64,000 nt of DNA from Vulcanimicrobium alpinum. GTDB lineage: Bacteria; Vulcanimicrobiota; Vulcanimicrobiia; Vulcanimicrobiales; Vulcanimicrobiaceae. Below the pieces are notes generated by a model. It saw only the letters and a program-made list of their open reading frames with translations, searched no databases and was not told where the DNA came from. Position numbers and translations under genes: made by a program. Positions 43,717 through 62,387 of this stretch are shown piece by piece (the stretch's first letter is position 1; the number at the start of each line of letters is the position of its first letter). The stretch covers positions 3,414,484 to 3,478,483 of the forward strand of contig NZ_AP025523.1 in NCBI RefSeq assembly GCF_027923555.1, read 5' to 3'.

Positions 43717-43800
43717 GCGACCGTTCGGCTACCCTTTCGTCTACCGTTTCGGGAAAACAGGTATCGTGGACCTGATAAAGCGTACAGAACCCATTACCTA

Positions 43801-43883
43801 GGCGGTGGGGTCCGCCTCACGAGATCGTGGAACCGCCGCTCGTCGGCCAATGACTCCTGTGCCGCTGCATGTGTGCTTAGGAG
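43801..43883 (+). ncRNA. Fluoride (crcB) riboswitch 1, translational type
   Basis: Aptamer 43801-43862. GGCGGTGGGGTCCGCC forms the first stem-loop. An extra hairpin CACGA/CGTG follows, then GAACCGCC and GGCCAATGACTCCT. The long-range pairing GGGGTC (loop 1) with GACTCC (43852-43857) matches the crcB motif. Downstream, CTCCT (43854-43858) is complementary to the Shine-Dalgarno AGGAG (43879-43883), which lies 8 bases before the ATG of the hyfC-like gene. No T tract follows. Inference: without fluoride CTCCT masks the Shine-Dalgarno; with fluoride the aptamer captures it and frees translation. Confidence 0.88.
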
Positions 43884-43891
43884 CTCCCGCG

Positions 43892-44854
43892 ATGACAGCT
43901 ACCCTTCCGGCGCCGCTCGTCCAAATTTTTCAAGTCGCAGCGGCGCTTTTTCTCTCGCCGCTTCTGACCGGAGTCATCGCGCGTTGGGAAGCATTGGTCG
44001 CCGGTAAGCGCGGGCCCTCGGTTCTCCAAACGTACCGCGACATCGTCAAATTCTTGCGCAAGGCCTCGATTCGGCCCGATGTTGCGTCGCCAGTTTTTCG
44101 CTATGCGCCGTACGTGGTCTGCGGGAGTTACGCGACGATCGCGACGCTCATCCCCGTGCTTACAACTTATCCGCTCCCGGGCGCTACCTACGGTGATATT
44201 CTCGCTGGCGCGTTTCTCTTTGCCCTAGGATCATTCGCAACGTCCCTTGCCGCTCTCGATTCGGGATCGCAATATGCGAATATCGGTGCGAGCCGGGCAA
44301 CGATGGTCGGGATATTCGTCGAACCGACACTCATTTTCGTCTTTTTTTCCGTCGCATTCATTAGCGGAACGGACTTGCCGTACGCGATGAATGCGCAATT
44401 GCGCGATTCATTGGCAAACGTTTTGAGACCGGCGCATGTTCTGGCGACTGCAGCATTCTTTCTCATGCTGCTCGTGGATACCGGCCGTATTCCGATCGAG
44501 AGTTCATCGGCAACGACAGAGTTCGGGATGATCGACGATGCGCGGCTGTTTGAGCATACCGGTCCGGAGATGGCGCTATTCAAATGGGCCGGATCGATCA
44601 AACAATTTCTTCTCTACACTATTTTTATCAACGTTCTGCTCATTCCTCAAGGATTATCAACAGACGGCTCGGTAACGAGCGTAGCCTTCGCCCTGGTCAC
44701 GCTCTTTCTAAAAATGTTGCTCGTCGGCGCGCTCGTAACGATCATCGACACGACTTTTGCGAAATTGCGGCTGTACCGCGTCGTCGAATTTATCGCGACG
44801 GGCTTGCTCGTCGCGCTTCTCGCGGTCGTCGCATACGTGGCCGGATTCGGATAA
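43892..44854 (+). CDS. HyfC/HycD/NuoH-like membrane subunit of a complex-I-related complex
   Basis: 320 residues with about eight hydrophobic segments. KRGPSVLQTYRDIVKFLRKASI is the loop 1 motif of NuoH/HycD, and DTGRIPIESSSATTEFGMID the family's acidic loop (usually D-x-x-R-x-P-x-E). NuoH-type subunits join the peripheral arm to the proton-translocating arm in the inner membrane. First gene of the hyf-like operon and the direct target of riboswitch 1. The ATG at 43892 is chosen because the AGGAG that the riboswitch controls lies 8 bases upstream. The base composition is less GC-rich than the genes before 40 kb. Confidence 0.88.
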   Translation: MTATLPAPLVQIFQVAAALFLSPLLTGVIARWEALVAGKRGPSVLQTYRDIVKFLRKASIRPDVASPVFRYAPYVVCGSYATIATLIPVLTTYPLPGATYGDILAGAFLFALGSFATSLAALDSGSQYANIGASRATMVGIFVEPTLIFVFFSVAFISGTDLPYAMNAQLRDSLANVLRPAHVLATAAFFLMLLVDTGRIPIESSSATTEFGMIDDARLFEHTGPEMALFKWAGSIKQFLLYTIFINVLLIPQGLSTDGSVTSVAFALVTLFLKMLLVGALVTIIDTTFAKLRLYRVVEFIATGLLVALLAVVAYVAGFG

Positions 44855-44855
44855 G

Positions 44856-45521
44856 ATGCATACCTTATCTGTCCCCCAGGCTCTTGCCGGAAGCGTCGCT
44901 GTGGTTTTGCTGCTCGTGCAGCTCGCAATGCTTCGTTCGCTCGTTCTCGTTGAGTTGATCGCGCTGTACGCGTTACAATCGTTGCTCGTGGCGATTGTCT
45001 GTGCGACGGTCGGCGTTGTCGATGGCGCTTGGGATCTCATCTTTCTTGCGATCATAACGGTCGTGGTAAAAGCGTTTGCTCTGCCGCTGTACATGCGAGT
45101 CCTCTCGCACCGAGTATCGTCACGCGTCGAAATTCCGGCGCGTATCAATGTCACGGCTTCCTTGCTCATTGCCGCTGCGCTGATCGCACTCGCGATGACG
45201 ACTGCCTCTCGGCTTCCTTTGCACGCGGGCGCCTTTCTGCCGTCGGCAAATCTTGCGACGACCCTCTCCATCGTTTTCGTCGGGTTTCTGATTGCCATTC
45301 TGCGGCCCAATGCGCTCGCGCAAGTCATAGCATTTCTGACGCTCGAAAATGGCCTTTTTTTCGGCACCGTAACCCTCGCGCCGGGGCTTCCGCTCGTTGT
45401 CGGAGTTTTGCTGCTCATCGATGTCGTCATCGCTGTCGTCGTCTTCGCCGTGCTCGTTCGCGTCATCGTCAACGAACGCGGTTCGATTGCGACGAGCTCG
45501 CTCGAAAGTTTACGCGGATGA
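44856..45521 (+). CDS. HyfE-like (NuoK-related) membrane subunit
   Basis: 221 residues, about seven hydrophobic segments, matching the size of HyfE (about 216) rather than the 100-residue NuoK. Conserved glutamates in membrane segments (VELIALYALQSLLVAI and AFLTLENGLFFGTVTLA) correspond to NuoK/HyfE proton-path residues. Starts 1 base after the hyfC-like stop; its own stop overlaps the next ATG by 4 bases. HyfE rather than MrpC is indicated because the neighbours are HyfF/HyfG-like. Function inferred: part of the ion-conducting arm. Confidence 0.82.
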   Translation: MHTLSVPQALAGSVAVVLLLVQLAMLRSLVLVELIALYALQSLLVAIVCATVGVVDGAWDLIFLAIITVVVKAFALPLYMRVLSHRVSSRVEIPARINVTASLLIAAALIALAMTTASRLPLHAGAFLPSANLATTLSIVFVGFLIAILRPNALAQVIAFLTLENGLFFGTVTLAPGLPLVVGVLLLIDVVIAVVVFAVLVRVIVNERGSIATSSLESLRG

Positions 45522-46960
45522 ATCCGATTGTTGCCGCGATCGTTGCCATCCCCGGGATGCTCGCGATCGTGTGCCTTCTTTTGCCGTATACCGTGGGCCG
45601 TGCGTTGACGGCGGTCGGCGCCGTCGTTACAGCGATGCTCATCGCCATTGTTGCGGTGATGGTTTCGCAGCACCGAGGAACCATCGATGCGCAGTCCACA
45701 TTGTTTCTTCTCCCGCTCGGTATCGTGTATGCATGCGTGGGCATCTACACCGTCTGGTACGTCGAAGCGGAAGCGCATGGTTCCGATCGCGAGCGCTTCC
45801 GACGGGAGTTTCTGGCCCTAACGAATGCATTTGCGTTCGTCGAAGTCATCGTTCCGCTCGTGACAAATATGGCTGGCCTATGGGTTGCGATGGAGGCGAC
45901 GACGATCGTCGCTGCCTTGCTCGTTCGGTTGCAGGGCACGCCGGCTGCGCTCGAAGCTGCGTGGAAGTATATCCTCATTGCATCGTGCGGCCTCGGACTC
46001 GCGCTGGTCGCCGTCATCGTGCTCTATGCGGGTGGTACGGAGGCGCTCGGAACGCGGTACTCGCCTGATTGGGCCGCGTATGTTTCGGCTGCGCGCCGAC
46101 TGAATCCCGACGCCGTGCGCCTTGCGTTCCTGTTCGCACTTGTCGGCTTCGGAACGAAAATGGGACTTGCGCCCATGCATACCTGGCTTCCGGACGCTCA
46201 TGGTGCCGGTCCAACGCCGACGAGCGCGATGCTTTCGGGCGTCGTCCTCAGCGACGCGCTCTACGCAATCTTACGGTTTGCCGCAATCACGAATGCGGCA
46301 CTCGGACCGTCATACGCGCGTCACCTTTTTGCCGTGCTCGGTTTGCTCTCGCTCTTCCTCGCCGCATTCTTTCTCCTTCAGCAGCGCGATCTCAAGCGTA
46401 TGTTTGCCTATTCAAGTATCGAGCACATGGGGATCGTCGCGACCGCGCTTTCGTTTTCGGCTCCGATCGCCGTCGCAGGAGCGATGCTTCATGTCGTTAA
46501 TCACGCGGCCACGAAGTCGCTAGCATTTCTTGCAGCCGGTCGCATCGCGGAACGGTACGAGACGCGTGAAATCGCGGGCATCCGCGGCGCGCTGGTAACA
46601 CTCCCCGTCAGCAGCGCCTTTCTCGCGATTGCGGGCCTCGCACTTGCGGGCATGCCACCATTTGGAATGTTCCGGAGCGAACTCATGATTCTCGTCGGCG
46701 GTTTTTCCAGCGCGCCTCTCAGAGCCGGAGCACTTCTCGTGCTGCTGGTCATTGCGTTTGCAGGCATCGTGCGCTGGATCGCGGCAGTCACGGGAGGAGC
46801 GCCGCCTGAGAGCATCGTTCGCGGAGAACGAGCAATATTTCCCATCATCGGAATGGCGCTGGGCGTGGTCATCGTGGTTGGCCTCGGCGTATACGTGCCG
46901 AACGTTCTTAAAGTGCTGATCTTTGGGGTCCAACATATCCTCGCGGGAAACGTCTCATGA
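45518..46960 (+). CDS. HyfF-like (NuoN/MrpD antiporter-type) membrane subunit
   Basis: 480 residues, about 14 hydrophobic segments, Proton_antipo_M domain. The proton-channel residues are present: Glu126 in LWVAMEATTIVAAL, Lys214 in GFGTKMGLAPMHTWLPDAHG, and Lys333 in NHAATKSLAFL. LPDAHGAGPTPTSAMLSGVV is the family hallmark. It moves protons or Na+ across the inner membrane in complex I and group 4 hydrogenases. ATGA overlaps on both sides show tight translational coupling in the operon. Confidence 0.9.
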   Translation: MNPIVAAIVAIPGMLAIVCLLLPYTVGRALTAVGAVVTAMLIAIVAVMVSQHRGTIDAQSTLFLLPLGIVYACVGIYTVWYVEAEAHGSDRERFRREFLALTNAFAFVEVIVPLVTNMAGLWVAMEATTIVAALLVRLQGTPAALEAAWKYILIASCGLGLALVAVIVLYAGGTEALGTRYSPDWAAYVSAARRLNPDAVRLAFLFALVGFGTKMGLAPMHTWLPDAHGAGPTPTSAMLSGVVLSDALYAILRFAAITNAALGPSYARHLFAVLGLLSLFLAAFFLLQQRDLKRMFAYSSIEHMGIVATALSFSAPIAVAGAMLHVVNHAATKSLAFLAAGRIAERYETREIAGIRGALVTLPVSSAFLAIAGLALAGMPPFGMFRSELMILVGGFSSAPLRAGALLVLLVIAFAGIVRWIAAVTGGAPPESIVRGERAIFPIIGMALGVVIVVGLGVYVPNVLKVLIFGVQHILAGNVS

Positions 46961-48339
46961 ACGTCCTCTCACTCAGTGAAGCGCAGAATCTGATACGGGC
47001 GCGTCTGCGTTCCGGCTCGCGGTTCGTCAGTGCGTTTCTCGATGACACCCGCGAAGGTCGGATCGTTCGTTACGTCTTAGCGAACGAGCGGCACCTCGAA
47101 CCGTATGCCGCCATGCTGGAAGAACCGCTTCCAACGCTCACCGACATCACGCCCGCTGCGGCTTGGTACGAGCGTGAACTCCGCGACATCGACGGAATTT
47201 CCGTGTGCGGCGAGCTCGACGGTCGGTCCCTCGATCCGACCGTTTCGGAACCCGTTCGCCGCTCGGCATCTTCCGAAGTCTCAACCGTTCTGTATGGCCC
47301 CGTGCGCTCGGGCATTTCCGAATCGGCGCGCTGGCTTATCGAAACCGCCGGTGAGGATTTCCTGGGCGTTCAGGCGACGATGTTTTACAAGCGTCGCCGA
47401 ATTGAAGCCCGATTCATTGGAGTGGCGCTCGATCTCGCGCCGTTTATCGCCGAACACGTTTCGGGCGCGACCGCAGCCAGCCATGCGAGTGCGTTTTCCC
47501 GAGCGTGTGAGGTCGCACTCGAGATCACCATACCAAATCGAGCGCGCGCTGCGCGGGGCGTCCTCGTTGAGTTCGAACGGATTCACCAGCATCTCGACGT
47601 GCTAGCGAAACTCGCTGACGATGCGTCGCTCGCCGTTGGGGCTGCGCAAACGTTCGCGCTCAAGGAACGCGTGCATCGTTTTCTTGCAGCAGCGACTGGA
47701 AATCGTTTTGCGCGGGGGTGCGTTGCGATTGGCGGGGTTCGCGACGATCTAATCCCTGCGCTGCGGCGCGAAGCTGCGCGGTCGCTTGACGACCTCGAAC
47801 GCGATATCCTTGCGGTCGTTGCGACGCTGTTCGAAACCCCATCGCTGACCGATCGACTGATCGGAACCGGACATCTTTCCGCAGAAACCGTCGTACGCTT
47901 TGGCGGTGTTGGGCCGGTTGCCCGAGGAAGCGGCGTCTCATGCGATGCACGCACGCGGGACGGTTGGCTCTCAACCCCGCTCGAAGGTGATGAGGCACTC
48001 GAACGTGCGGGAGATGCCTTTGCCCGCGCGAGCGTCCGACGGCGCGAAATTCGTCGGGCATTCCGACTGATTCGAAATGCACTCGACGGGGCAAGTGAAG
48101 GGCCTCATCGGGTCGAGACGCCGCTGCGCAGCGGTATGGGCTACGCGCGCGTCGAGTCACCGCAGGGTGAACTTGTATATTTCGTTCGCATCGACGACGG
48201 TCTCCAGCGCGTTGCGATTCGATCCGCGACCTTTGCGAACTGGCCGCTCTTTGCGCTGTCCCTTCCCGGAAATATTTTCACGGATTTCTCGTTTGTCGAG
48301 CACTCGTTCGGAGCAATCCAGGCAGAGAGCGATCGATGA
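46957..48339 (+). CDS. HyfG-like (NiFe-hydrogenase large subunit / NuoCD-type), NiFe ligands absent
   Basis: 460 residues. An N-terminal NuoC-like part (about 1-110) precedes a NuoD/hydrogenase large-subunit part. Where hydrogenases have R-x-C-G-x-C near the start of this part, this protein reads EHVSGATAASHASAFSRA (residues 166-183), with Ser and Ala in place of the Cys pair. At the C-terminus, where the D-P-C-x-x-C pair belongs, it reads FVEHSFGAIQ (446-455). All four NiFe-ligand Cys are therefore missing. The remaining conserved pieces (GVLVEFERIHQHLDVL) keep the fold. The protein resembles energy-converting-hydrogenase-related (Ehr) complexes, so no H2 chemistry is expected. Confidence 0.85.
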   Translation: MNVLSLSEAQNLIRARLRSGSRFVSAFLDDTREGRIVRYVLANERHLEPYAAMLEEPLPTLTDITPAAAWYERELRDIDGISVCGELDGRSLDPTVSEPVRRSASSEVSTVLYGPVRSGISESARWLIETAGEDFLGVQATMFYKRRRIEARFIGVALDLAPFIAEHVSGATAASHASAFSRACEVALEITIPNRARAARGVLVEFERIHQHLDVLAKLADDASLAVGAAQTFALKERVHRFLAAATGNRFARGCVAIGGVRDDLIPALRREAARSLDDLERDILAVVATLFETPSLTDRLIGTGHLSAETVVRFGGVGPVARGSGVSCDARTRDGWLSTPLEGDEALERAGDAFARASVRRREIRRAFRLIRNALDGASEGPHRVETPLRSGMGYARVESPQGELVYFVRIDDGLQRVAIRSATFANWPLFALSLPGNIFTDFSFVEHSFGAIQAESDR

Positions 48340-49076
48340 ACCGATGGTTCTTGCGCGGCTTGCGCACGGGAATTGTAACGACCCGTTTTCCAAGCGGAAT
48401 CGATGCGATGCCAGCCGGATGGCGCGGTCGCGCGGTATGCCAAGAAGGCGCTGATGCGCAATCGATTGCGCGCGCCGCCGCCGTCTGTCTGAGTGGTGCG
48501 ATCGAGGAACGAAGCGGTGCGGTTGATGTCGATCGCTGTTTCCAGTGCGGTGAGTGCGCCCGCATCACGCCGCGAGCTTTCGCGATGTCAGCAGAGTTCA
48601 ATCTCGCTCATTTCTCCGCCGACCCGACGGAGGAGCGAGCGCGCTTACGCGAGCGCGTGCGCTCGCTTGGAAAATCGATCATGATTCGGCACATCGATGT
48701 CGGGAGCGACTGCTCGGAGGATCAGGAAATGCAGGCGCTCTTCAACCCGTACTATGACGTGACACGGCTCGGCATCTTTCTTACCGCATCGCCCAGGCAC
48801 GCCGATCTCCTCGCTGTCACCGGTGCGGTGACCGGAGCGATGGCGGAACCGCTGCGGCGCACGTATGATGCAATGCCGGAACCGAAGGTCGTCGTCGCCG
48901 TTGGTACGAGTGCGGCGTCGGGCGGAATCTTCGCCGGAAGCCCGGGAATAATCGGCGCGGTCGAGCGGGTGATTCCGGTCGACATCGCAATCCCGGGTTC
49001 GCCTCCGCCGCCGCTCGCCATCATCGCGGGCTTATGGCTCGCACTCGGGCGCATCCCGCCGGTTGCATGCAGATGA
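48336..49076 (+). CDS. Fused degenerate ferredoxin (HyfH/NuoI-like) and HyfI/NuoB-like subunit, most FeS ligands lost
   Basis: 246 residues. Residues about 1-90 resemble the HycF/HyfH ferredoxin: RFPSGIDAMPAGWRGR, then DRCFQCGECARITPRAF (three of four Cys). Residues 100-246 resemble HycG/HyfI/NuoB: YDVTRLGIFLTASPRHADLL, VTGAVTGAMAEPLRRTYDAM, RVIPVDIAIPGSPP. At the proximal-cluster positions, SDCSEDQ (124-130) stands for C-x-x-C, GTSA (190-193) for G-x-C-A, and PGSPP (220-224) for PGCPP. At least three of four cluster ligands are gone. The small subunit is therefore probably electron-inactive. Fusion of HyfH and HyfI in one chain is unusual. ATGA overlaps on both sides. Confidence 0.8.
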   Translation: MNRWFLRGLRTGIVTTRFPSGIDAMPAGWRGRAVCQEGADAQSIARAAAVCLSGAIEERSGAVDVDRCFQCGECARITPRAFAMSAEFNLAHFSADPTEERARLRERVRSLGKSIMIRHIDVGSDCSEDQEMQALFNPYYDVTRLGIFLTASPRHADLLAVTGAVTGAMAEPLRRTYDAMPEPKVVVAVGTSAASGGIFAGSPGIIGAVERVIPVDIAIPGSPPPPLAIIAGLWLALGRIPPVACR

Positions 49077-51073
49077 CGGCGCCGTTCTCAGCGCTCATCG
49101 CTGCCGGGCTTGCGTGTCTCGCGGGTGCCGCGATCTCGGCCTTCGTTCGCGTGAAGTTTGCGCGATCGGTAGCGTTCGCGCTCCTGACCCTCGCGGGTTC
49201 TGCGGCATGCGTAGCAGCGGTCCTGGCTCTGCGGAGTGCTGCTCATGCGATATCATTCGGCAATCATATTGCGTTGCGGCTTGATGGGCTCGCGGGATTT
49301 TTCGTGCTCGTACTCGGCCTTGTCGCGACGCTGACCGCGCTGTTCGCGTGCGGTCGCCGACGCCGCAATGAACGCGGGCTCGGTTTGCATGCCTCGGGCA
49401 GCGCATGCACGATCCTCTTCGCATCATTGCTCGCCTGCAGTGCCGATGATGTGTGGCTCTTTCTCTTCGGCTGGGAACTCTTGGCGCTTGGTTTTGGTTG
49501 GGCGATTGCGTTTGCGGGTGAACGCGAGAACGCCGATCGTGCGGCGTATTTCACGCTTGTAATCACCCATGCGGCGGGTGCAGCGCTGCTGGGAGCGCTA
49601 CTTATTCTCACCGTCCATTCTGGTTCGCGCGTCAGCGATGTGGCCGTCGGGTGGGCGCACCTCTCGCCGCAGATGGCGGGACTCGTGTTCGTCGGGTTGC
49701 TGGCAGGTTTTGGAGCGAAGATCGGCATCTTTCCCCTACAGGGGTGGATGCCGTACGGATACCCGGCGGCACCCGGGCCCCTTGCCGCCCTCATGGCGGG
49801 CGGTGCGCTGAACGTTGGCTTTTACGGACTCGAGCGCTTCGTCGTTTCAGCGCCCGTCGCGGTACCGACGTGGTGGTCCGTCCTGGTGCTTGCTCTAGGC
49901 GCGTTCGGTGCCATCCTGGGAGTCATGTGGGCGCTCGCGCAGCGCGATATGCGGATGCTCGCTGCGTTTTCGAGCGTTGAGAACGCTGGCATCATCCTCG
50001 TGGGCATCGGTGTCGCGCTGGCGGGGCGCGCCGTTTCGCAACCGTTTCTGGTGGGCTTTGGGTTAGCGGCGGCGGCCGTTCAAATTCTTGCTCACGCGAT
50101 CGCGAAATCGACGCTCTTTCTTGTCATCGGAGATGTCGATGACGCGACTGGGTCGACATCTTTCGATCTACTCGGCGGACTATGGCGACGGCTTCCGGTG
50201 AGTACGACTGCGGCAACCGCTGCTGCCCTCTCGCTTGCCGCACTGCCGCCATTCGGGGGCTTTGCCGGCGAGTGGCTCTCTCTTGAGGCCACGATGCAGG
50301 CCTTTCGAACGGCGTCATTGCCGCTCGAAATCGCTCTCGCTGTCGCCGGGGCAGCAATTGGACTCGCGGCGGGTGCGGCGGTCGTCGCATTCGTGAAAAC
50401 CGTCGGCATCGGATTTCTCGGCGCGGCACGCTCACCAGGTGCCGAACATGCATCGGGCTCGAAAAGTATGCTCACCGGTCTCGCGTACGCGGGTCTCGTG
50501 ATCGCCTCGGTCATCGTTGGCAGCTGGACCCCGACCGTGCTCAACCTCATCGCGCCAGCGATCGATTCCATCGCACGCGTGGCGACGGTCGCGGCGATGA
50601 TTCACGATGCGCCCCTCGTTCAGCCGCCGTTCCCAGGTTTTTCGTCAGTCTCGGGAATGGGTCTCGTCGGAACTGCACTCGCCTTCGCCCTTGGCTTCCG
50701 CATCCTGGTCGCTTTGATTCGGCGACCAGTCTCGCGCAGCGAAGCGCCTTGGACGTCAGGAAACCGCTATTATGCTTGGACGCAATATTCCGGCACGGGA
50801 TTTGCAAATGCGAGTCGCGTTGTGCTCGATATTGTCACGCGGGTCGTGCGCGAAACGAGCGGGGATGTCGCGGGAGACGGCAATTTACGCTACGAGAGTC
50901 GGGCTCGTCCATTCGCGGATCTGCCGCTAGCGATCGCGCTCGCTTCCGGATTCCTCCGTCTCTCAACGCTCGTTCGAAAGACGCAGTCCGGATTCATTGC
51001 TGTATACCTCTCGTACATCTTAGCCTTTATCATCGCACTGCTTTTCATATACCCCTTGCTCCGCCTCTGGTAG
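49073..51073 (+). CDS. HyfB-like (NuoL/MrpA antiporter-type) membrane subunit
   Basis: 666 residues, about 16 hydrophobic segments. Proton-antiporter core with Glu135 (LFGWELLALGFGWA), Lys216 (AGFGAKIGIFPLQGWMP) and Lys345 (LAHAIAKSTLFLVIGD). PPFGGFAGEWLSLEA is the usual mid-protein motif. HyfB/HycC pumps H+ or Na+ in formate hydrogenlyase-type complexes. The ATG at 49073 is preferred to one at 49067 because it gives the ATGA overlap seen throughout this operon. In E. coli hyf, hyfB is first; here it is last, so the gene order is rearranged (C-E-F-G-HI-B). Confidence 0.88.
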   Translation: MTAPFSALIAAGLACLAGAAISAFVRVKFARSVAFALLTLAGSAACVAAVLALRSAAHAISFGNHIALRLDGLAGFFVLVLGLVATLTALFACGRRRRNERGLGLHASGSACTILFASLLACSADDVWLFLFGWELLALGFGWAIAFAGERENADRAAYFTLVITHAAGAALLGALLILTVHSGSRVSDVAVGWAHLSPQMAGLVFVGLLAGFGAKIGIFPLQGWMPYGYPAAPGPLAALMAGGALNVGFYGLERFVVSAPVAVPTWWSVLVLALGAFGAILGVMWALAQRDMRMLAAFSSVENAGIILVGIGVALAGRAVSQPFLVGFGLAAAAVQILAHAIAKSTLFLVIGDVDDATGSTSFDLLGGLWRRLPVSTTAATAAALSLAALPPFGGFAGEWLSLEATMQAFRTASLPLEIALAVAGAAIGLAAGAAVVAFVKTVGIGFLGAARSPGAEHASGSKSMLTGLAYAGLVIASVIVGSWTPTVLNLIAPAIDSIARVATVAAMIHDAPLVQPPFPGFSSVSGMGLVGTALAFALGFRILVALIRRPVSRSEAPWTSGNRYYAWTQYSGTGFANASRVVLDIVTRVVRETSGDVAGDGNLRYESRARPFADLPLAIALASGFLRLSTLVRKTQSGFIAVYLSYILAFIIALLFIYPLLRLW

Positions 51074-51083
51074 AAGAGATCGC

Positions 51084-51476
51084 ATGTTTTCTCACATCGT
51101 GCTCGCCTGGGATGAATCGAATGCTGCGCGACATGCTGCAGATTACGCCTTCGTGCTTGCGGAAAAATTCGGTTCGCGCATCGACATTGTCAGCGTGCCT
51201 GCGCTTGAAGAAAATGCTGCGTTGGCTCTGACACTAGAGGCATTGCGAATCGAAGCCGAGCGCCGTGGACTGCAGACGACGCGTGTCGTCGTTATGCCAG
51301 CCGATGTGAAGCCAGAGAGCGCGATCGTGAAACACGCCTATGATTCCGGAGCCGATGTGATAGTGATCGGTCATCGCCCGCTCGATCCGCTCGAACGTTT
51401 CATCGTAGGAAGCGTTTCGGAACGGGTTGTGCGGGCGGCGCCGTGTGCGGTCCTTTCGGTCGCTGGCTCCGAGTGA
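51084..51476 (+). CDS. Universal stress protein (UspA family)
   Basis: 130 residues, one Usp domain. It starts MFSHIVLAWDESNAARHAADYA; the C-terminal ATP-site motif reads GHRPLDPLERFIVGSVSERVVRAAPCAVL, matching G-x2-G-x9-G-S/T with the first Gly replaced or shifted. Ten bases after the hyfB-like stop, so almost certainly part of the riboswitch-1 operon. UspA genes are recalled among genes linked to fluoride riboswitches in earlier surveys. It could be a stress chaperone or ATP/nucleotide sensor; target unknown. Confidence 0.88.
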   Translation: MFSHIVLAWDESNAARHAADYAFVLAEKFGSRIDIVSVPALEENAALALTLEALRIEAERRGLQTTRVVVMPADVKPESAIVKHAYDSGADVIVIGHRPLDPLERFIVGSVSERVVRAAPCAVLSVAGSE

Positions 51477-51542: not shown

Positions 51543-51554
51543 AAACGAAGTGAC

Positions 51555-51619
51555 GGCGATGGAGTTCGCCATAACCGCTGTCCACAGCTGATAACCCCTT
51601 ACTTTCGTGAGGGGTTTTT
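51555..51619 (+). ncRNA. Fluoride (crcB) riboswitch 2 with terminator
   Basis: GGCGATGGAGTTCGCC ATAACCGCT, loop GTCCAC, AGCTGATAACCCC: this is the crcB architecture. The terminator hairpin CCCCTTAC-TTTC-GTGAGGGG (51595-51614) is followed by TTTTT. The long-range partner reads AACCCC against GGAGTT, with one A-C mismatch where the other copies pair fully, so this aptamer may be weak. It precedes a NUDIX gene that is cut by IS-A copy 2. Confidence 0.85.
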
Positions 51620-51668
51620 CTATGATCAAGCGTGGTATCCACGGGACATTTCCGAAAGAATCCGCAGC

Positions 51669-51837
51669 ATGAGCATGGAGCGGTCGAACGTCACGTTTGC
51701 ACTCCGGGTTGCTGCCATCATTCGCGACGAGCGCGACCGGATATTGGTGGTCCGGGAGCATATCATCGGGATCGAGCAATGGACCTTACCCGGCGGGGCG
51801 CTACTGCTTGGCGAGTCGCTCGTTCTTGCGCTCGAAC
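51669..51837 (+). pseudogene. NUDIX hydrolase, N-terminal fragment
   Basis: About 56 residues from the ATG at 51669: VTFALRVAAIIRDERDRILV, then EQWTLPGGALLLGESLVLAL, the start of the Nudix box (G-x5-E). IS-A copy 2 begins at 51838 just before the REx2EE part. NUDIX hydrolases clean up oxidised nucleotides, ADP-ribose or similar. Being preceded by a fluoride riboswitch suggests a link with fluoride stress, but no activity remains. The other half of the gene is not found in the window. Confidence 0.8.
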
Positions 51838-53202
51838 GGCAGAGTCCCTATAATTGATGTAAATTCAGCGGGCGGGTAGCCACCGCTCCGGTTCGAAGAT
51901 TGACGTTGACAACACTTCAATCGAAAGGACCGGAACGGTGGCCGATTACGATCTTACCCTATCCCGCGACGCGATTCCAGCGTTGCTCGATCAACCTGCG
52001 GCGCTCGGGAAGCTCGTCGAAACGATTTTGAACCAAGTGCTCGAGGCGCAGATGCGCGATCATCTGGGCGCCGAGCGGTACGAACGCTGTCAAGAACGGG
52101 AGGGCTATCGGAATGGGTATCGCGATCGACAGCTCTCGACCCGCGTCGGATCGCTGGTCCTGCGCGTGCCGCAGACGCGCGACGGCAGCTTCTCAACCGA
52201 CATCTTCGAGCGTTATCGCCGCAGCGAACAAGCCTTTGTCGTGGGCCTGATGGAGATGGTCGTCAACGGCGTCTCGACGCGGAAGGTCACGCGGATAACC
52301 GAAGGTCTGTGTGGGACGTCGTTTTCGAAGTCGACGGTCAGTCGCCTCGCGAAGGCCCTTGACGAGCCGGTCGCGGGATTCTTGAATCGTCGGCTCGATG
52401 CGGCGTACCCGTTCATCATCGTTGACGCGCTCTTTACGAAGGTGCGCACCGACAAGAGCGTCGTCAGCAAAGCGCTGCTCATCGCGAGCGGCATTCGCGC
52501 TGACGGATACCGAGAAATCCTTGGTCTTTCGATCGGCGATTCGGAGAGCTTTGCGACGTGGAACGAGTTCTTTCGCGGCCTCAAAGCACGCGGCTTGCAC
52601 GGCGTCGACGTTGCCGTCTCCGACAATCACTCGGGCTTACGCGAGGCGATCGCCAAGCAATTCGTCGGCGCGACATGGCAGCGTTGCCAGTTCCACGTGA
52701 TGAAGAACTTGCTCGATCACGCGCCCAAGAAAGAACGCGAAAACGTAACCGCTGCAGCTCGGCTGATCTTCCTCGCAACTGATCGCAAAGAGGCCGAGCG
52801 TCGATATGCGGAATTCATGGCCCGCTTCGCAGAAACGGCGCCCAAGTCGTGCGTGTGCTTGGAAGGAGCGTTCGAAGACATGTTTGCGATCTTGCCGCTG
52901 CCGGAGAAATATCGTCGGCGACTGCGCACGAGCAACATGCAAGAGCGGCTCAATGAAGAGATTCGTCGCCGGGAGAAAGTCATTCGCATTTTCCCAAACG
53001 ACGCCGCAGCGATTCGCATGGTCGGCGCGTTACTCTCCGAGCAAAACGACGAATGGTTAAGCCGAGCCTACTTCGACATGACCGAATACTTCGAATGGAA
53101 AGCAACGACGGTGGCCAAGCCGGCCGCCGTAAAACGAGACAGACGAGCAGCCTAACTTACGCGATCGACGAACCGGAATTACAGCAGATTTGGGACTTGA
53201 CT
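51838..53202 (+). mobile_element. IS-A copy 2 (IS256 family), complete, 1365 bp
   Basis: Same ends (GGCAGAGTCCC and GGGACTTGACT) and length as copy 1, opposite orientation. Its flanks differ: GCTCGAAC on the left (NUDIX) and GACCTATTC on the right, only 9 bases before IS-B copy 2. No target duplication, so the element lies at a recombination or deletion junction that removed the rest of the NUDIX gene. Confidence 0.9.
51938..53155 (+). CDS. IS256-family transposase (IS-A copy 2)
   Basis: 405 residues, the same sequence as the copy at 40742-41959. GTG start at 51938, 100 bases inside the element. All DDE and C/D-x2-H blocks are present, so it should be active. Confidence 0.93.
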   Translation: MADYDLTLSRDAIPALLDQPAALGKLVETILNQVLEAQMRDHLGAERYERCQEREGYRNGYRDRQLSTRVGSLVLRVPQTRDGSFSTDIFERYRRSEQAFVVGLMEMVVNGVSTRKVTRITEGLCGTSFSKSTVSRLAKALDEPVAGFLNRRLDAAYPFIIVDALFTKVRTDKSVVSKALLIASGIRADGYREILGLSIGDSESFATWNEFFRGLKARGLHGVDVAVSDNHSGLREAIAKQFVGATWQRCQFHVMKNLLDHAPKKERENVTAAARLIFLATDRKEAERRYAEFMARFAETAPKSCVCLEGAFEDMFAILPLPEKYRRRLRTSNMQERLNEEIRRREKVIRIFPNDAAAIRMVGALLSEQNDEWLSRAYFDMTEYFEWKATTVAKPAAVKRDRRAA

Positions 53203-54376: not shown

Positions 54377-54452
54377 TCTGATTCGAACGTCGAATCGCAA
54401 CGGAGAGGTGCAGTTTTCGATCGGACTGCCCACTGGAGAATCGAGGAATCGC

Positions 54453-54797
54453 ATGAAGATCGAGCACAACGGAATGCTCGTACGTATCTACTTTTCGGAG
54501 AGCGCCCACCACGAGCACTCCGATACCTTGGGCCTCATTATTGCCGCACTTTCAAAAGCTGGTTTCGTTGGGGCATCGGTTTTTAAGGGCATCGAGGGCT
54601 ACGGCTCCCATCGTTATATCTCTAGCGCAAGCATCATTGATGCCTACGTCGATCTGCCGATTTTGATCGAAGTCGTTGACGACGAAGAAAAGGTTCGTTC
54701 GTTCATTCCCACCCTCGAAACGATCCTCGAGGATGGTTTGGTCACCCTCGAGCGCGTGCAAACGCTCTTCTATCGCGGAACTCCGGTCTGCGGGTAA
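54453..54797 (+). CDS. DUF190 protein (copy 1)
   Basis: 114 residues from an ATG at 54453 with GAGG about 8 bases upstream. MLVRIYFSESAHHEHSDTLG, then KAGFVGASVFKGIEGYGSHR and SASIIDAYVDLPILIEVVDD match the DUF190 family (PF02641), a ferredoxin-like/PII-like fold often found beside crcB. About 35% like the second copy at 60403 by eye (IEGYG and S-A-S-I-x-D shared). Any original promoter or riboswitch lies beyond the IS-B border at 54376. A perfect 7-base inverted repeat (GATTCGA ACG TCGAATC) is in the short leader. Role unknown, probably regulatory or channel-associated. Confidence 0.85.
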   Translation: MKIEHNGMLVRIYFSESAHHEHSDTLGLIIAALSKAGFVGASVFKGIEGYGSHRYISSASIIDAYVDLPILIEVVDDEEKVRSFIPTLETILEDGLVTLERVQTLFYRGTPVCG

Positions 54798-58225: not shown

Positions 58226-58778
58226 CTACCAGCAGACCTTCATCGACACCTATGCGAAGGTGGGCGTCGCGAAGCTCTATTTGGACAAGACACCAATCAC
58301 TGCGGCCGACCTGCTCAACGATCGCGTGTTACCGCTATACGAAGAGTACGGGATTACGTTGCAACGGATCCTGACCGACCGCGGCACGGAGTTTTGCGGG
58401 CGTGAGGGACATCCGTACGAGCTCTACCTGGCGATCGAAGACATCGACCACACCCGAACGAAGGCACGCCATCCGCAGACCAACGGCATCGTCGAGCGTT
58501 TTCACAAAACGATGCTTGATGAGTTTTATCGGATCGCGTTTCGCAAGACGATCTACACGTCGCTCGAGCAACTGCAGCGGGACCTCGATGCGTGGACCGA
58601 GGAGTACAACACGCAGCGTCCGCATCAAGGACGCTGGTGCTACGGCAAGACGCCGATGCAGACATTCGTCGACAGTGTCTCCCTTGCGAAAGAGAAACAG
58701 ATCGCTTAGACTGAAACCCAACCTATCTGACACTACCGCAAGATCGTACGACTGTCAGATCACATAGTAGCTAGTACA
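58226..58778 (+). mobile_element. IS-B copy 3, 3' fragment
   Basis: The sequence joins IS-B abruptly at CTACCAGCAGACC and runs to the normal right end ...CTAGTACA at 58778. The 5' half is missing. The right end abuts the 3' end of the cfa gene and supplies its stop codon. Confidence 0.9.
58227..58709 (+). pseudogene. IS481-family transposase, C-terminal fragment (IS-B copy 3)
   Basis: About 160 residues from [20 protein letters not shown] to the stop, including the second Asp (LTDRGTEF) and the Glu ([12 protein letters not shown]). The N-terminal HTH and first Asp are gone, so it is inactive. Confidence 0.88.
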
Positions 58779-59870
58779 GCGCCAGAAATTGCGCGCACTG
58801 CCAGCCATATAGATCTTCCAGATACGATACGTGCGCTCGTCGGTCGCAGCAATAACATTGTCGCAGCTCGCTTCGAGATTTTTGTGCCAGGCGCGTAGAG
58901 TTCGAGCGTAGTGTTCGCGGAGATTCTCGACGTCGCGGACCTCGAATCCAACCCTCCCTGCAGCACGGAGTATCGTCTCAATGCTCACGAGGTCCCCGTC
59001 CGGAAAGACGTATCGGTCCATGAAGCCGCTCGCGCGACAGCCTCTGCCATCGCGACTCTGCTGAGCGATCCCGTGGTTGAGAAAAAGTCCGCCTTTGCGA
59101 AGTGCATCGAATGCGGTGTGGAAATATACTTGCAGCCGCTCTCGGCCGACATGTTCGATCATTCCAACGCTGACGATCTTGTGAAAGGTCTCGCCGCGCA
59201 AATCACGATAGTCGCGTAATTCAACGCGAACCCGATCTCCGACGCCCGCCTGGGCGATGCGTCGCTGAGCTTCTTCATACTGCAGGCGACTCAACGTTAC
59301 GCCAAGGGCCTCAGCACCGAATTGCTGCGCGGCACGCAGAACGAGGGCTCCCCAACCGCAGCCGATATCAAGTAGACGTTCCCCCGGACGTACCCGAAGT
59401 TTTCGTAATGTGTGATCGATCTTTGCGACCTGTGCATCGTCGAGTGTTTGCACGCCCTCGTCCCAGTAGCCGCATGAATAAACCATTCGCGAGTCAAGAA
59501 AGCTACGGTAGAATTCGATCGGCTGATCGTAGTGAAATCCGATCGCCGCCGCATCACGCTGTTTTGAGTGCCGCTTTCCGTGGAGTTGCGCTTCGTGCCG
59601 CGACGCTCGCGGTACGTTCGGCAGACGCATGAGCTGCGCGATCAGACGAGGCAGTGTGAGGCGAGGTAAGATCTCGAGCGCATTTTCAATCGCGTCGATC
59701 ACCAACTCGATATCGCCGTCGATGTCGATCCATTTCTCGACGAACGCCCGCCCAGGGCTCAAGTCCAGCGGCGGAGCAAATGCTGCTCGCAGGGCGAACG
59801 GTTCATTGATGAACAGCGTGAAGTGTGCGTTCTCGGTTGCTGGCACGCGCGTGCCATCCCAAAGTTCCAC
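58779..59870 (-). pseudogene. Cyclopropane-fatty-acyl-phospholipid synthase (CFA synthase)-like, 3' end cut by IS-B
   Basis: About 364 residues. FHYDQPIEFYRSFLDSRMVY is the CFA synthase box, LLDIGCGWGALVLRAAQQFG the SAM site, and SVGMIEHVGRERLQVYFHTA a later motif. WKIYMAGSARNFWR then runs into IS-B sequence (CTSYYVI, stop at 58755), so roughly 10-15 C-terminal residues are replaced. It uses SAM to methylenate phospholipid double bonds in the inner membrane. GTG at 59870 is the only standard start, but conserved-looking residues continue upstream to about 59984 (ATT). It is preceded by fluoride riboswitch 4. Loss of activity is likely but not certain. Confidence 0.8.
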
Positions 59871-59982: not shown

Positions 59983-60053
59983 ATAGAAACGCTCCCGCTA
60001 TAACGCAGGAGCTATCAGCCCAAAACGGGCGGTTAATGGCGAGCCCCATCGCC
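59983..60053 (-). ncRNA. Fluoride (crcB) riboswitch 4, minus strand
   Basis: Read on the minus strand: GGCGATGGGGCTCGCC ATTAACCGCCCG TTTT GGGC TGATAGCTCCTGCG. The long-range pair is GGGGCT with AGCTCC. The terminator is GCTCCTGC / GCGGGAGC around TTAT, followed by GTTTCTATTTT. The sequence GGCGATGG...CGCCATTAA is very close to the published Pseudomonas-type crcB motif. It lies between a good promoter (60068-60096) and the cfa gene. Confidence 0.88.
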
Positions 60054-60067
60054 AAATTTTTTTTTCG

Positions 60068-60096: not shown

Positions 60097-60285
60097 TCGA
60101 GTGCTCGTTAATGGTGAAGGGCGGTGGGCTGGCACTGCCCGCCTCCTCACTGAATCTATCGTGCGCTCGAGGGGATCGAGAGGCATCTCGAAGACCGGCA
60201 TTCGTGAGTTGGACTGCTCGTGAGTTTTGGCTGAAGGGATGCGGACAGCTTCTGAAAGAATCGTCGCCTGAGGACCTGGTTTGAA

Positions 60286-60366
60286 GGTGGTGGAGTCCGC
60301 CTGCAGCGATCGTCTGCGAACTGCCGATTTCGGCCAATGACTCCTGGCGCGTGCTAGGAGTTTTTT
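60286..60366 (+). ncRNA. Fluoride (crcB) riboswitch 5, transcriptional type
   Basis: GGTGGTGGAGTCCGCC, extra hairpin GCAG/CTGC, GAACTGCC GATTTC GGCCAATGACTCCT. Long-range pair GGAGTC with GACTCC. Overlapping terminator ACTCCTGGC-GCGT-GCTAGGAGT (60340-60361, one G-T pair) followed by TTTTTT. With fluoride the ACTCC strand is held by the aptamer and the terminator cannot form, as in the Bacillus cereus crcB RNA. The target genes are DUF190-crcB-MFS. The 190 bases between this and the promoter of riboswitch 4 hold no gene and no convincing plus-strand promoter. Confidence 0.92.
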
Positions 60367-60402: not shown

Positions 60403-60765
60403 ATGAACGATGAAACGGCCAAGGCGTATCCGTACCGTCCTGCTTTGCGAGTGAGTATCTATATCGGCGAGCGCGACCACCACGCCGGACAGCCGTTATA
60501 TACGGCAATTGTCGAGCTAGCACGCAAGCTTGGAATCGCCGGAGCGACGGTTCTTCGCGGAATCGAAGGCTACGGTGCTGATGCGGTGGTGCATTCCGCG
60601 AGCATCGTCGACCTTTCATCGAATCTTCCGTTGATCGTGGTCGTCATTGATGAACTTCCGAGGATACAAACGTTCATCTCGACGGTCGCCGACATGCTGG
60701 TCGATGGAATGATGACCACGGAAGAGCTTGAGATCGTCGATCATAAGCACGGAAAGATTTTGTGA
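60403..60765 (+). CDS. DUF190 protein (copy 2)
   Basis: 120 residues. RVSIYIGERDHHAGQPLYTA, then LARKLGIAGATVLRGIEGYG and SASIVDLSSNLPLIVVVIDE match DUF190. First gene after riboswitch 5. Its stop overlaps the start of crcB by 1-4 bases. The DUF190-crcB pairing is common in fluoride-tolerance loci, and a PII-like fold suggests a regulatory or sensing partner of the channel, but the function is not established. Confidence 0.88.
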   Translation: MNDETAKAYPYRPALRVSIYIGERDHHAGQPLYTAIVELARKLGIAGATVLRGIEGYGADAVVHSASIVDLSSNLPLIVVVIDELPRIQTFISTVADMLVDGMMTTEELEIVDHKHGKIL

Positions 60766-61154
60766 TGGATCCACGCGCGATGCTTGCTGTGGGAGCGGGC
60801 GCCGCAATTGGGGGTGTCGGTCGACTCCTGGTGACGGAGGCGGTCGTTGCACGGGTAGGAGCCGGATTTGGGCATTATGCCACGTTTTTCATCAATGTTT
60901 CCGGTGCATTCCTCATCGGTGTCGTGCTCGCTCTCGCGCAATCCCGCACGGAATTTAATCCGCTCTTGCGATTGTTTTTAGCGACGGGAATTCTTGGCGG
61001 CTACACGACCTTCTCAACATTCTCATTCGAGGTGTTCAATCTGGCAACCGGCGGATTCGTGCTTACCTCGATTGTATATGCTGTAGGGAGTGTCGCGCTG
61101 GGCGTTATCGCCGCGTTTCTCGGCGTGACGCTCGTGCGCGCGATCGGTGTATAA
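60765..61154 (+). CDS. crcB: Fluoride channel CrcB/Fluc
   Basis: 129 residues with four membrane helices. GAAIGGVGRLL (Gly-x-x-x-R near the N-terminus), FFINVSGAFLIGVVLAL (the conserved Asn in helix 2) and GILGGYTTFSTFSFEVFNLA (GxxGxxTTFSTF, with the central Na+/phenylalanine-box region) are Fluc hallmarks. It forms an antiparallel dual-topology dimer that lets fluoride out of the cell. ATG at 60765 (a GTG at 60762 overlaps the DUF190 stop). Intact, so this is the active core of the island. Confidence 0.95.
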   Translation: MDPRAMLAVGAGAAIGGVGRLLVTEAVVARVGAGFGHYATFFINVSGAFLIGVVLALAQSRTEFNPLLRLFLATGILGGYTTFSTFSFEVFNLATGGFVLTSIVYAVGSVALGVIAAFLGVTLVRAIGV

Positions 61155-61184
61155 AGATCGCGGCCCGACGGAGGCACCCGGTTG

Positions 61185-62387
61185 ATGAAGGTCTCGCCAT
61201 TCGTATGGCTATGCGGAGTTGGGTTCCTCGGCCGCTTGAGCTACGAGATGATTCGTACGCCGATCGTTTCGCTTTTTGCCGTCAGGCTCGGCGCACCCAC
61301 GCAGATCATCGGTCTTTTAGTTGCGGCCGTCACGCTGACGGGAATCGTCGTGAAATATCCGTCCGGGGCGCTCGCCGACATTTTTGGGTTTCGCCGGATC
61401 ATGTCGTATGGACTGATCGTGAAAGCGACGGCACCGTTCTTGTATATGCTGGTATCGACGTGGCCGCAGCTGCTCGTTTTGCGGCTGTACCACGGATTGT
61501 CAACGGCGCTGTACGCGCCCGTTGCCTCGGCATTCGTTGCGAAAGAATATCCCGAACAACGTGCGAGTCGCCTCGGCATGTACGGAGCATTCGAAAATGG
61601 CGGTGTCGTCTTGGGGCCGGTCTTCGGCGCCTATCTTTTGTCGGTTTCGTCATTCACCGTGGCCTTTCTCAGCTCCGGGATCATCGGAATCATGGCCTTT
61701 AGGGGAATTTTCGAAATCCCGCGTGACGCTCGCCGCACTCCGGAGGCTGCGCGGCTCCGACCGGCAGATATCGCGCGGCAGATGCTCGCAGGCGCGAAAG
61801 AAATCGCCAGTGACGGCGCCATCCGCATCGTAAGCTTTGTTGAAGGCACGATGTACATGGGCGTGGGTACGCTGCAAGCGTTTCTGCCGCTCTATGCATT
61901 GAGCGTGCATATTTCGGTGGCGGAGGTGGGCGTGTTGTTCGGTATACAGGGTGCGGCTTCCATCATCGGTCGCCCGCTCTGGGGCAAGGCCTCGGATACG
62001 ACCGGTCGTCGGCCGCTCGTTGTCGCTGGAATAGTGCTCTGCGCGGCAACACTCGTGACCATGCCGTTAACGGAGAATTTCTTGATGCTCTGCGGCTTGA
62101 ACTTGCTGTTCGGGCTCGGCACTGGAATGGTTACGCCATCGACGACCGCATTGATCGGCGATTTGGTCAAGCGCAATGCCTTCGGTGCGGCGATGGGTGT
62201 CTTCGGCAGTTTGTGGGATATCGGTCATGCGAGCGGTCCCATCATCGCGGGCTTCTTGATTGCCTGGATTGGCTATCGGTATGCGTTCTCGATCATCGCC
62301 GTGCCGATGCTTCTCGCGCTCGTCTTCTTCGTCAGCAGCAACGGCGTCCGTCGCGTGGCAGACCGGCTCGCCTCAAAACTTCCGTAA
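61185..62387 (+). CDS. Major facilitator superfamily transporter
   Basis: 400 residues, 12 hydrophobic segments. KYPSGALADIFGFRRIMSYG (loop 2-3 motif G-x-x-x-D-x-x-G-x-R), LGMYGAFENGGVVLGPVFGA (helix 5) and GKASDTTGRRPLVV (loop 8-9 repeat) identify MFS, drug-export-like type. ATG at 61185 with GGAGG 10 bases before. Thirty bases after crcB and plausibly in the same riboswitch-5 operon, so expression would respond to fluoride. Substrate unknown. Confidence 0.87.
   Translation: MKVSPFVWLCGVGFLGRLSYEMIRTPIVSLFAVRLGAPTQIIGLLVAAVTLTGIVVKYPSGALADIFGFRRIMSYGLIVKATAPFLYMLVSTWPQLLVLRLYHGLSTALYAPVASAFVAKEYPEQRASRLGMYGAFENGGVVLGPVFGAYLLSVSSFTVAFLSSGIIGIMAFRGIFEIPRDARRTPEAARLRPADIARQMLAGAKEIASDGAIRIVSFVEGTMYMGVGTLQAFLPLYALSVHISVAEVGVLFGIQGAASIIGRPLWGKASDTTGRRPLVVAGIVLCAATLVTMPLTENFLMLCGLNLLFGLGTGMVTPSTTALIGDLVKRNAFGAAMGVFGSLWDIGHASGPIIAGFLIAWIGYRYAFSIIAVPMLLALVFFVSSNGVRRVADRLASKLP

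Follow-up and report, generated by a model that had tools for sequence, protein, structure and literature searches.

A riboswitch-associated, hydrogenase-4-like operon of Vulcanimicrobium alpinum lacks the ligands of most redox centres and may encode an ion transporter of a fluoride-resistance island

Introduction

Genes annotated as 'formate hydrogen lyase' were reported behind the crcB motif by Weinberg in 2010 (PMC2864571), and a 2022 paper repeats the association (PMC8752731). In one fluoride operon that contains uspA, knock-outs had an effect on resistance to fluoride (PMC5533749). The energy-converting hydrogenase-related (Ehr) complexes are suspected of linking redox chemistry to the transport of ions. 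Here we describe an operon of Vulcanimicrobium alpinum in which a fluoride riboswitch stands before genes for a hydrogenase-4-like membrane complex. It lies in a stretch of 64,000 nucleotides (contig NZ_AP025523.1, positions 3,414,484 to 3,478,483 of the forward strand; hereafter the window) of a closed genome of 3.51 Mb. A first-pass annotation, made from the letters alone, had noted that early surveys of the crcB motif saw such a link, and the 2010 report, which names formate hydrogen lyase genes, bears this out. The association of switch and genes is already known from that report; the literature searched contained no report of missing redox centres or loss of the N2 cluster in fluoride-linked complexes. 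Our preferred reading, to which we assign a probability of roughly 0.5, is a redox-silent ion transporter that is induced by fluoride, is related to Ehr and the group 4 hydrogenases and belongs to a fluoride-resistance island.

Results

Operon layout

The genes behind the first switch follow the order hyfC-E-F-G-HI-B-uspA, all on the + strand. Their identities were assigned by Pfam and NCBIfam (NuoH, HyfE, HyfF, 49 kDa/30 kDa, 20 kDa plus ferredoxin, HyfB and Usp, respectively); TM denotes a transmembrane helix.

43892-44854, +: hyfC, NuoH-like membrane subunit with the E-channel acids kept (PF00146 1.5e-30; NuoH residue comparison)
44856-45521, +: hyfE, hydrogenase-4 membrane subunit (NF008556 7.9e-19, below its curated cut-off)
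45518-46960, +: hyfF, antiporter-like subunit with TM5 Glu, TM7 Lys and TM12 Lys kept (PF00361, NF005044)
46957-48339, +: hyfG-like large subunit without NiFe cysteines, GPxH changed to GPVR (R117) (PF00346 3e-33; alignments)
48336-49076, +: hyfHI fusion with one 4Fe-4S site (PF01058, PF13370; predicted structure)
49073-51073, +: hyfB, large antiporter-like subunit (NF005086 5e-107; residue comparison)
51084-51476, +: uspA, universal stress protein (PF00582 1.9e-21)

Family matches and comparators upheld the Hyf-type subunit set, the rearranged order and the HyfHI fusion given in the first-pass annotation. The ATGA overlaps by which it joined all genes occur at four junctions (E|F, F|G, G|HI and HI|B); the other two, C|E and B|uspA, have gaps of 1 and 10 bases, respectively. 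The terminal uspA that it noted recurs often within the bacterial family to which the window belongs, closing the operon in 7 of the 11 relatives with the whole operon, and is no constant part of the hyf operon elsewhere. In Solirubrobacterales-type loci (L084, L077, L142, L096, L087 and L112), hyfC and hyfE appear to be joined in one long open frame.

Loss of redox-centre ligands

The subunits were compared with E. coli hyf, hyc and nuo and with a second hyf of the same genome. Both NiFe-binding CxxC pairs are missing in the window's HyfG and in the fluoride-linked HyfG sequences aligned. The near-universal GPxH motif reads GPxR in most fluoride-linked HyfG, Arg being found in none of the comparators aligned, and divergent large subunits of the G008 type have Tyr or other residues at the His position. 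Among 72 HyfI sequences, none of the four N2 cysteines is present in 64, one in 4, two in 1 and all four in 3; hence 68 of the 72 have at most one, and the window's HyfI has none. The lost ligands are mostly replaced by Asp/Glu/Asp/Ser, with Asp at the first position in 67 of 68, and the window's HyfHI has D125, E128, S192 and S222 at this site.

One 4Fe-4S site, N6b-like by the complex I assignment, is retained in all 57 HyfHI ferredoxin parts that could be aligned without gaps; to its ligands motif 1 contributes its final Cys and motif 2 its first three (C51, C68, C71 and C74 in the window). The second ferredoxin site has none of its four cysteines in 54 of the 57. C51, C68, C71, C74 and D125 are invariant in a 31-row HyfHI alignment. 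The predicted HyfHI structure has a mean pLDDT of 86 and a TM-score of 0.86 on MbhJ, by the target's length, which indicates that the NuoB fold of HyfI survives. The predicted loss of the electron wire is well supported by these comparisons.

A second NuoB lineage in which the N2 ligands are largely replaced (STNAC, GDD, PGDPP) was seen at L153:5885-6343 and L154:5946-6443. Its gene order is I-B-C-E-F-G, L154 also carries kdpA, and no fluoride riboswitch was found in 18 kb.

Retained ion path

The residues of the ion path are kept. Across the aligned fluoride-linked systems, both HyfF and HyfB retain TM5 Glu, TM7 Lys and TM12 Lys; the HyfB of Burkholderia has one Leu-Gly variant region with the Lys still present. 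Where E. coli HyfB and HycC carry a TM8 Lys, the window's HyfB has Asn. HyfC retains acids matching NuoH E157, D213, E220 and E228. The Glu/Lys set of the antiporter subunits and the acidic NuoH-like channel of a complex I-type ion translocator were both found.

Riboswitch and predicted control of hyfC

Two elements precede hyfC:

43792-43866, +: fluoride riboswitch aptamer, variant (RF01734, 35.4 bits)
43854-43883, +: expression platform, CUCCU 43854-43858 against the Shine-Dalgarno sequence AGGAG 43879-43883 (folding and permutation test)

The position of a riboswitch directly before the hyf operon, as first annotated, is confirmed by this match and by its recurrence (see below). The score lies only just above the RF01734 gathering score of 34, and P1, P3 and the pseudoknot are intact. 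The switch is a variant in which G6-C38 replaces A6-U38 (T. petrophila numbering) and in which an additional hairpin (43818-43829) lies between P1 and P3. Across 76 related switches, positions 6 and 38 are A/T in 68, G/C in 8 and mixed in none. The G6-C38 form also occurs in one actinobacterial locus, and the variant with the extra hairpin was seen, besides the window, in L064, L066-L070 and L141.

When 43801-43900 was folded, the hyfC Shine-Dalgarno sequence paired at a probability above 0.99 with CUCCU, which forms the 3' strand of the switch's pseudoknot, in agreement with the earlier proposal that the platform covers it; no such pairing appeared when the short segment 43845-43900, without the aptamer, was folded alone. 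Over 76 operons, whose relatedness was not removed, the match between pseudoknot 3' strand and Shine-Dalgarno sequence had a mean score of 7.82 for own pairs versus 6.13 for re-dealt partners, above all 500 permutations (highest 6.53). The unliganded switch is thus predicted to trap the Shine-Dalgarno sequence, and fluoride binding would form the pseudoknot, free the sequence and turn translation on. Translational control of hyfC by fluoride is, as a prediction, well supported by the sequence evidence.

Recurrence across bacteria

A HyfC scan of genome contigs matched 412 relatives, of which the best 80 were used for counting. The switch lies directly upstream of hyfC in 76 of these 80, which span several phyla; in three others (L071, L080 and L085) it lies about 340-900 bases upstream, and L118 is doubtful. 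The order C-E-F-G-HI-B was found in this set wherever the contig was long enough. The annotation had named uniqueness to this contig as grounds for giving up the link; such an arrangement is ruled out by recurrence in many genomes, and the pairing of switch and operon beyond chance is confirmed.

Part of the 76/80 count comes from a scripted search. A covariance model (R1), built by RNAalifold from pseudoknot and P3 pairs without P1, overlooked many insert-bearing switches (e.g., L162 and L163), and upstream regions were therefore anchored by the script, which was calibrated afterwards. Scores of at least 9 were reached by 75 of 79 hyfC upstream regions versus 2.1% of random windows from the same loci, and scores of at least 10 by 69 of 79 versus 0.6%. 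Because the search picks the best arrangement, the P1 pair count over the 76 switches is supportive and not independent. The Rfam model likewise overlooks many switches of this operon: in a Conexibacter genome, for example, RF01734 found none.

Within the window's phylum, a high-scoring HyfG group (at least 480 bits; next at most 172) comprises 13 genomes, among them that of the window, and a lowered threshold revealed the switch near the operon in them; in G084 the operon is split between two contigs, with the switch match on the other contig. The recurrence covers 12 relatives within the window's own family, where relatives include metagenome-assembled genomes deposited as Candidatus Eremiobacterota. 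The identical gene order, with riboswitches, is present in plasmid islands of Mycobacterium branderi, Burkholderia and Caballeronia. In an Actinomycetota sample, HyfC was matched in 32 of 396 genomes. Twenty of these places were read: the four with high scores have the C-E-F-G-HI-B order and the switch, four with intermediate scores have the same order and switches in the locus, and the 12 with low scores have other gene orders and no switch was found. At 16 hyf/Ehr comparators with other gene order, no fluoride switch was detected. On an Alicyclobacillus plasmid from acid mine drainage (L040:6543-8245), a riboswitch precedes a lone HyfG-like gene, and no further hyf gene was found within the 15 kb read.

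In a HyfG tree of 57 rows, a branch (97/90) has the fluoride-linked systems together on a single side, and the N2-bearing G008 and Burkholderia forms fall outside the main N2-less group. From this placement, fluoride control probably preceded N2 loss; the reading of the tree is provisional, since the controls comprise six rows only and three end branches are long.

Island context

RF01734 matches number three in the window and six in the whole genome; three of the six do not reach the gathering score, and the six together fall inside a 25.6 kb region. The island continues downstream of uspA as follows; IS denotes an insertion sequence.

51546-51607, +: second fluoride riboswitch, before a NUDIX fragment (RF01734, 44.2 bits)
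51651-51857, +: NUDIX gene, N-terminal part, truncated beside a transposase gene (PF00293 6.8e-6)
51938-53155: Mutator-family transposase gene (PF00872)
54408-54797, +: DUF190 gene of the fluoride island (PF02641)
58755-59870, -: cyclopropane fatty acid synthase-like gene, preceded by the third riboswitch (PF02353 6.7e-90)
59999-60062, -: third fluoride riboswitch (RF01734, 59.0 bits)
60277-60353: sub-threshold riboswitch match before DUF190 and CrcB/Fluc (RF01734, 29.9 bits)
60403-60765, +: DUF190 (PF02641)
60762-61154, +: CrcB/Fluc fluoride channel (PF02537)
61182-62387, +: major facilitator superfamily transporter of the island (PF07690)

The G+C content of the operon is 60%, compared with 70% in the window's first 40 kb, and IS elements surround it, which fits lateral gain. 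The supporting context in such islands comprises CrcB, a CLC-type channel, enolase, pyrophosphatase, MutS and DUF190. CrcB, CLC, DUF190, Eno or Ppa were found by single-sequence phmmer in only 22 of 57 long flanks; the island context is therefore clear in some loci and not in all. The fluoride island of a conjugative Burkholderia cenocepacia plasmid (L144:1-33446) holds eno, ppa and mutS twice each, together with crcB, a CLC-type channel, DUF190 and the hyf operon. Genes similar to the window's cyclopropane fatty acid synthase-like gene are present in three other loci. Elsewhere in the window's genome (G000:C1:2570684-2572332) lie two photosynthetic reaction-centre (PF00124) genes.

Discussion

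In the mechanism that we favor, the complex would no longer carry electrons to the old active site and would instead perform secondary, proton-coupled ion transport, either H+/cation exchange or H+ movement, during fluoride stress. Transport would correct the imbalance of pH, charge or cations that arises from HF entry and F- exit via CrcB/Fluc, and the complex would work alongside stress proteins and spare enzymes that resist fluoride in a mobile island for fluoride resistance. A new coupling or gating site may have arisen from the acidic residues of the old N2 site and the Arg of the old GPxH site. The transported ion, the direction of transport and any direct handling of fluoride are matters on which we infer; the transported species is probably a proton or another cation.

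Several points weigh against this mechanism. Expression, assembly, transport and the fluoride phenotype are all predicted from sequence. The invariable retention of one 4Fe-4S site leaves room for some role in redox or sensing. Relatives of the Burkholderia type are fluoride-linked yet retain N2 and both ferredoxin sites, which implies that the fluoride role did not initially require redox loss. Finally, only existing ion gradients are an obvious source of energy without redox input, and the complex could then not itself pay for proton extrusion.

The fluoride-induced proton or sodium pump or antiporter suggested in the first-pass annotation divides at this point: an antiporter or other secondary transporter is possible, and an electron-driven pump, like hydrogenase-4 function, is unsupported, since ligands are missing from the NiFe site, N2 and one ferredoxin cluster. 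In a rival reading with Ehr-type redox coupling, electrons would enter the remaining 4Fe-4S cluster and reach a metal at the acidic N2 residues. The universal retention of that cluster, the conserved Asp/Glu/Asp that could hold a metal and the existence of relatives with intact N2 are in its favor. Such a working pump is unlikely, however, given that the electron path is, by sequence, broken at one ferredoxin site, N2, GPxH and the NiFe ligands and that the operon showed no gene for an electron donor.

Quite unlikely, too, is a complex that itself binds and expels fluoride or HF at the expense of ion gradients, with the GPVR Arg and the acidic site serving as a fluoride or metal-fluoride site. 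Fluoride regulation is consistent with it, as is the replacement of His by Arg in most fluoride-linked large subunits; on the other hand, the islands already carry CrcB or CLC-type exporters, G008-type subunits do not share the Arg, and the halide site is putative. Similarly unlikely is the variant in which Asp/Glu/Asp/Ser of the old N2 site and GPVR bind fluoride, HF or metal-fluoride and the complex senses or expels fluoride without redox.

It is very improbable that fluoride induces an ordinary formate hydrogenlyase or hydrogenase 4, or a spare complex I: the subunits are homologous and the literature uses the wording 'formate hydrogen lyase', but the missing NiFe and N2 ligands rule out a formate hydrogenlyase or hydrogenase 4 function and contradict this reading for the present operon, in which no formate dehydrogenase or hydrogenase-maturation gene was found. 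Least credible is a decaying hydrogenase remnant hitch-hiking in the island, for although many ligands are lost and IS elements lie around, a decaying pseudo-operon is largely ruled out by the conservation, over several phyla, of open frames, gene order, one cluster, ion residues and even the replacement residues (the Asp of the first N2 position).

The fluoride-induced, redox-silent transporter would represent a large lineage in which the complex I/hydrogenase architecture has seemingly lost electron transfer and been retained, under the control of fluoride, to move ions. If the ion-only reading is true, the lineage offers a natural test of how far complex I can function without redox, and the genes that the fluoride regulon contains under the unexplained label 'formate hydrogenlyase' would become a defined, testable component of resistance.

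Compared with known systems, the operon shares NuoL/M/N-type antiporter-like subunits with Mrp antiporters but has NuoH-, NuoD- and NuoB-like subunits in place of the MrpA-G set. The fluoride-resistance operon and island of PMC5533749 likewise have a fluoride riboswitch, uspA, spare fluoride-sensitive enzymes, CrcB and a mobile island, whereas a complex I-like operon is not described there. With complex I (NuoH, NuoD, NuoB, NuoL/M/N) the operon has in common the NuoB fold in HyfI and the NuoH acids in HyfC, but it lacks the NADH module, N2 and GPxH. Its HyfB, C, E, F, G, H and I are homologous to those of E. coli hydrogenase 4 and formate hydrogenlyase (hyf, hyc), from which it differs in the absence of HyfA, HyfD and HyfJ and of NiFe and N2 ligands, in the HyfH-HyfI fusion and in gene order. 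As in Ehr, defined by a group 4-like large subunit without NiFe ligands together with antiporter-like subunits (PMC6349859), both of these features are present here; unlike in Ehr, N2 and one ferredoxin cluster are also lost, the order is C-E-F-G-HI-B, and a fluoride riboswitch stands in front.

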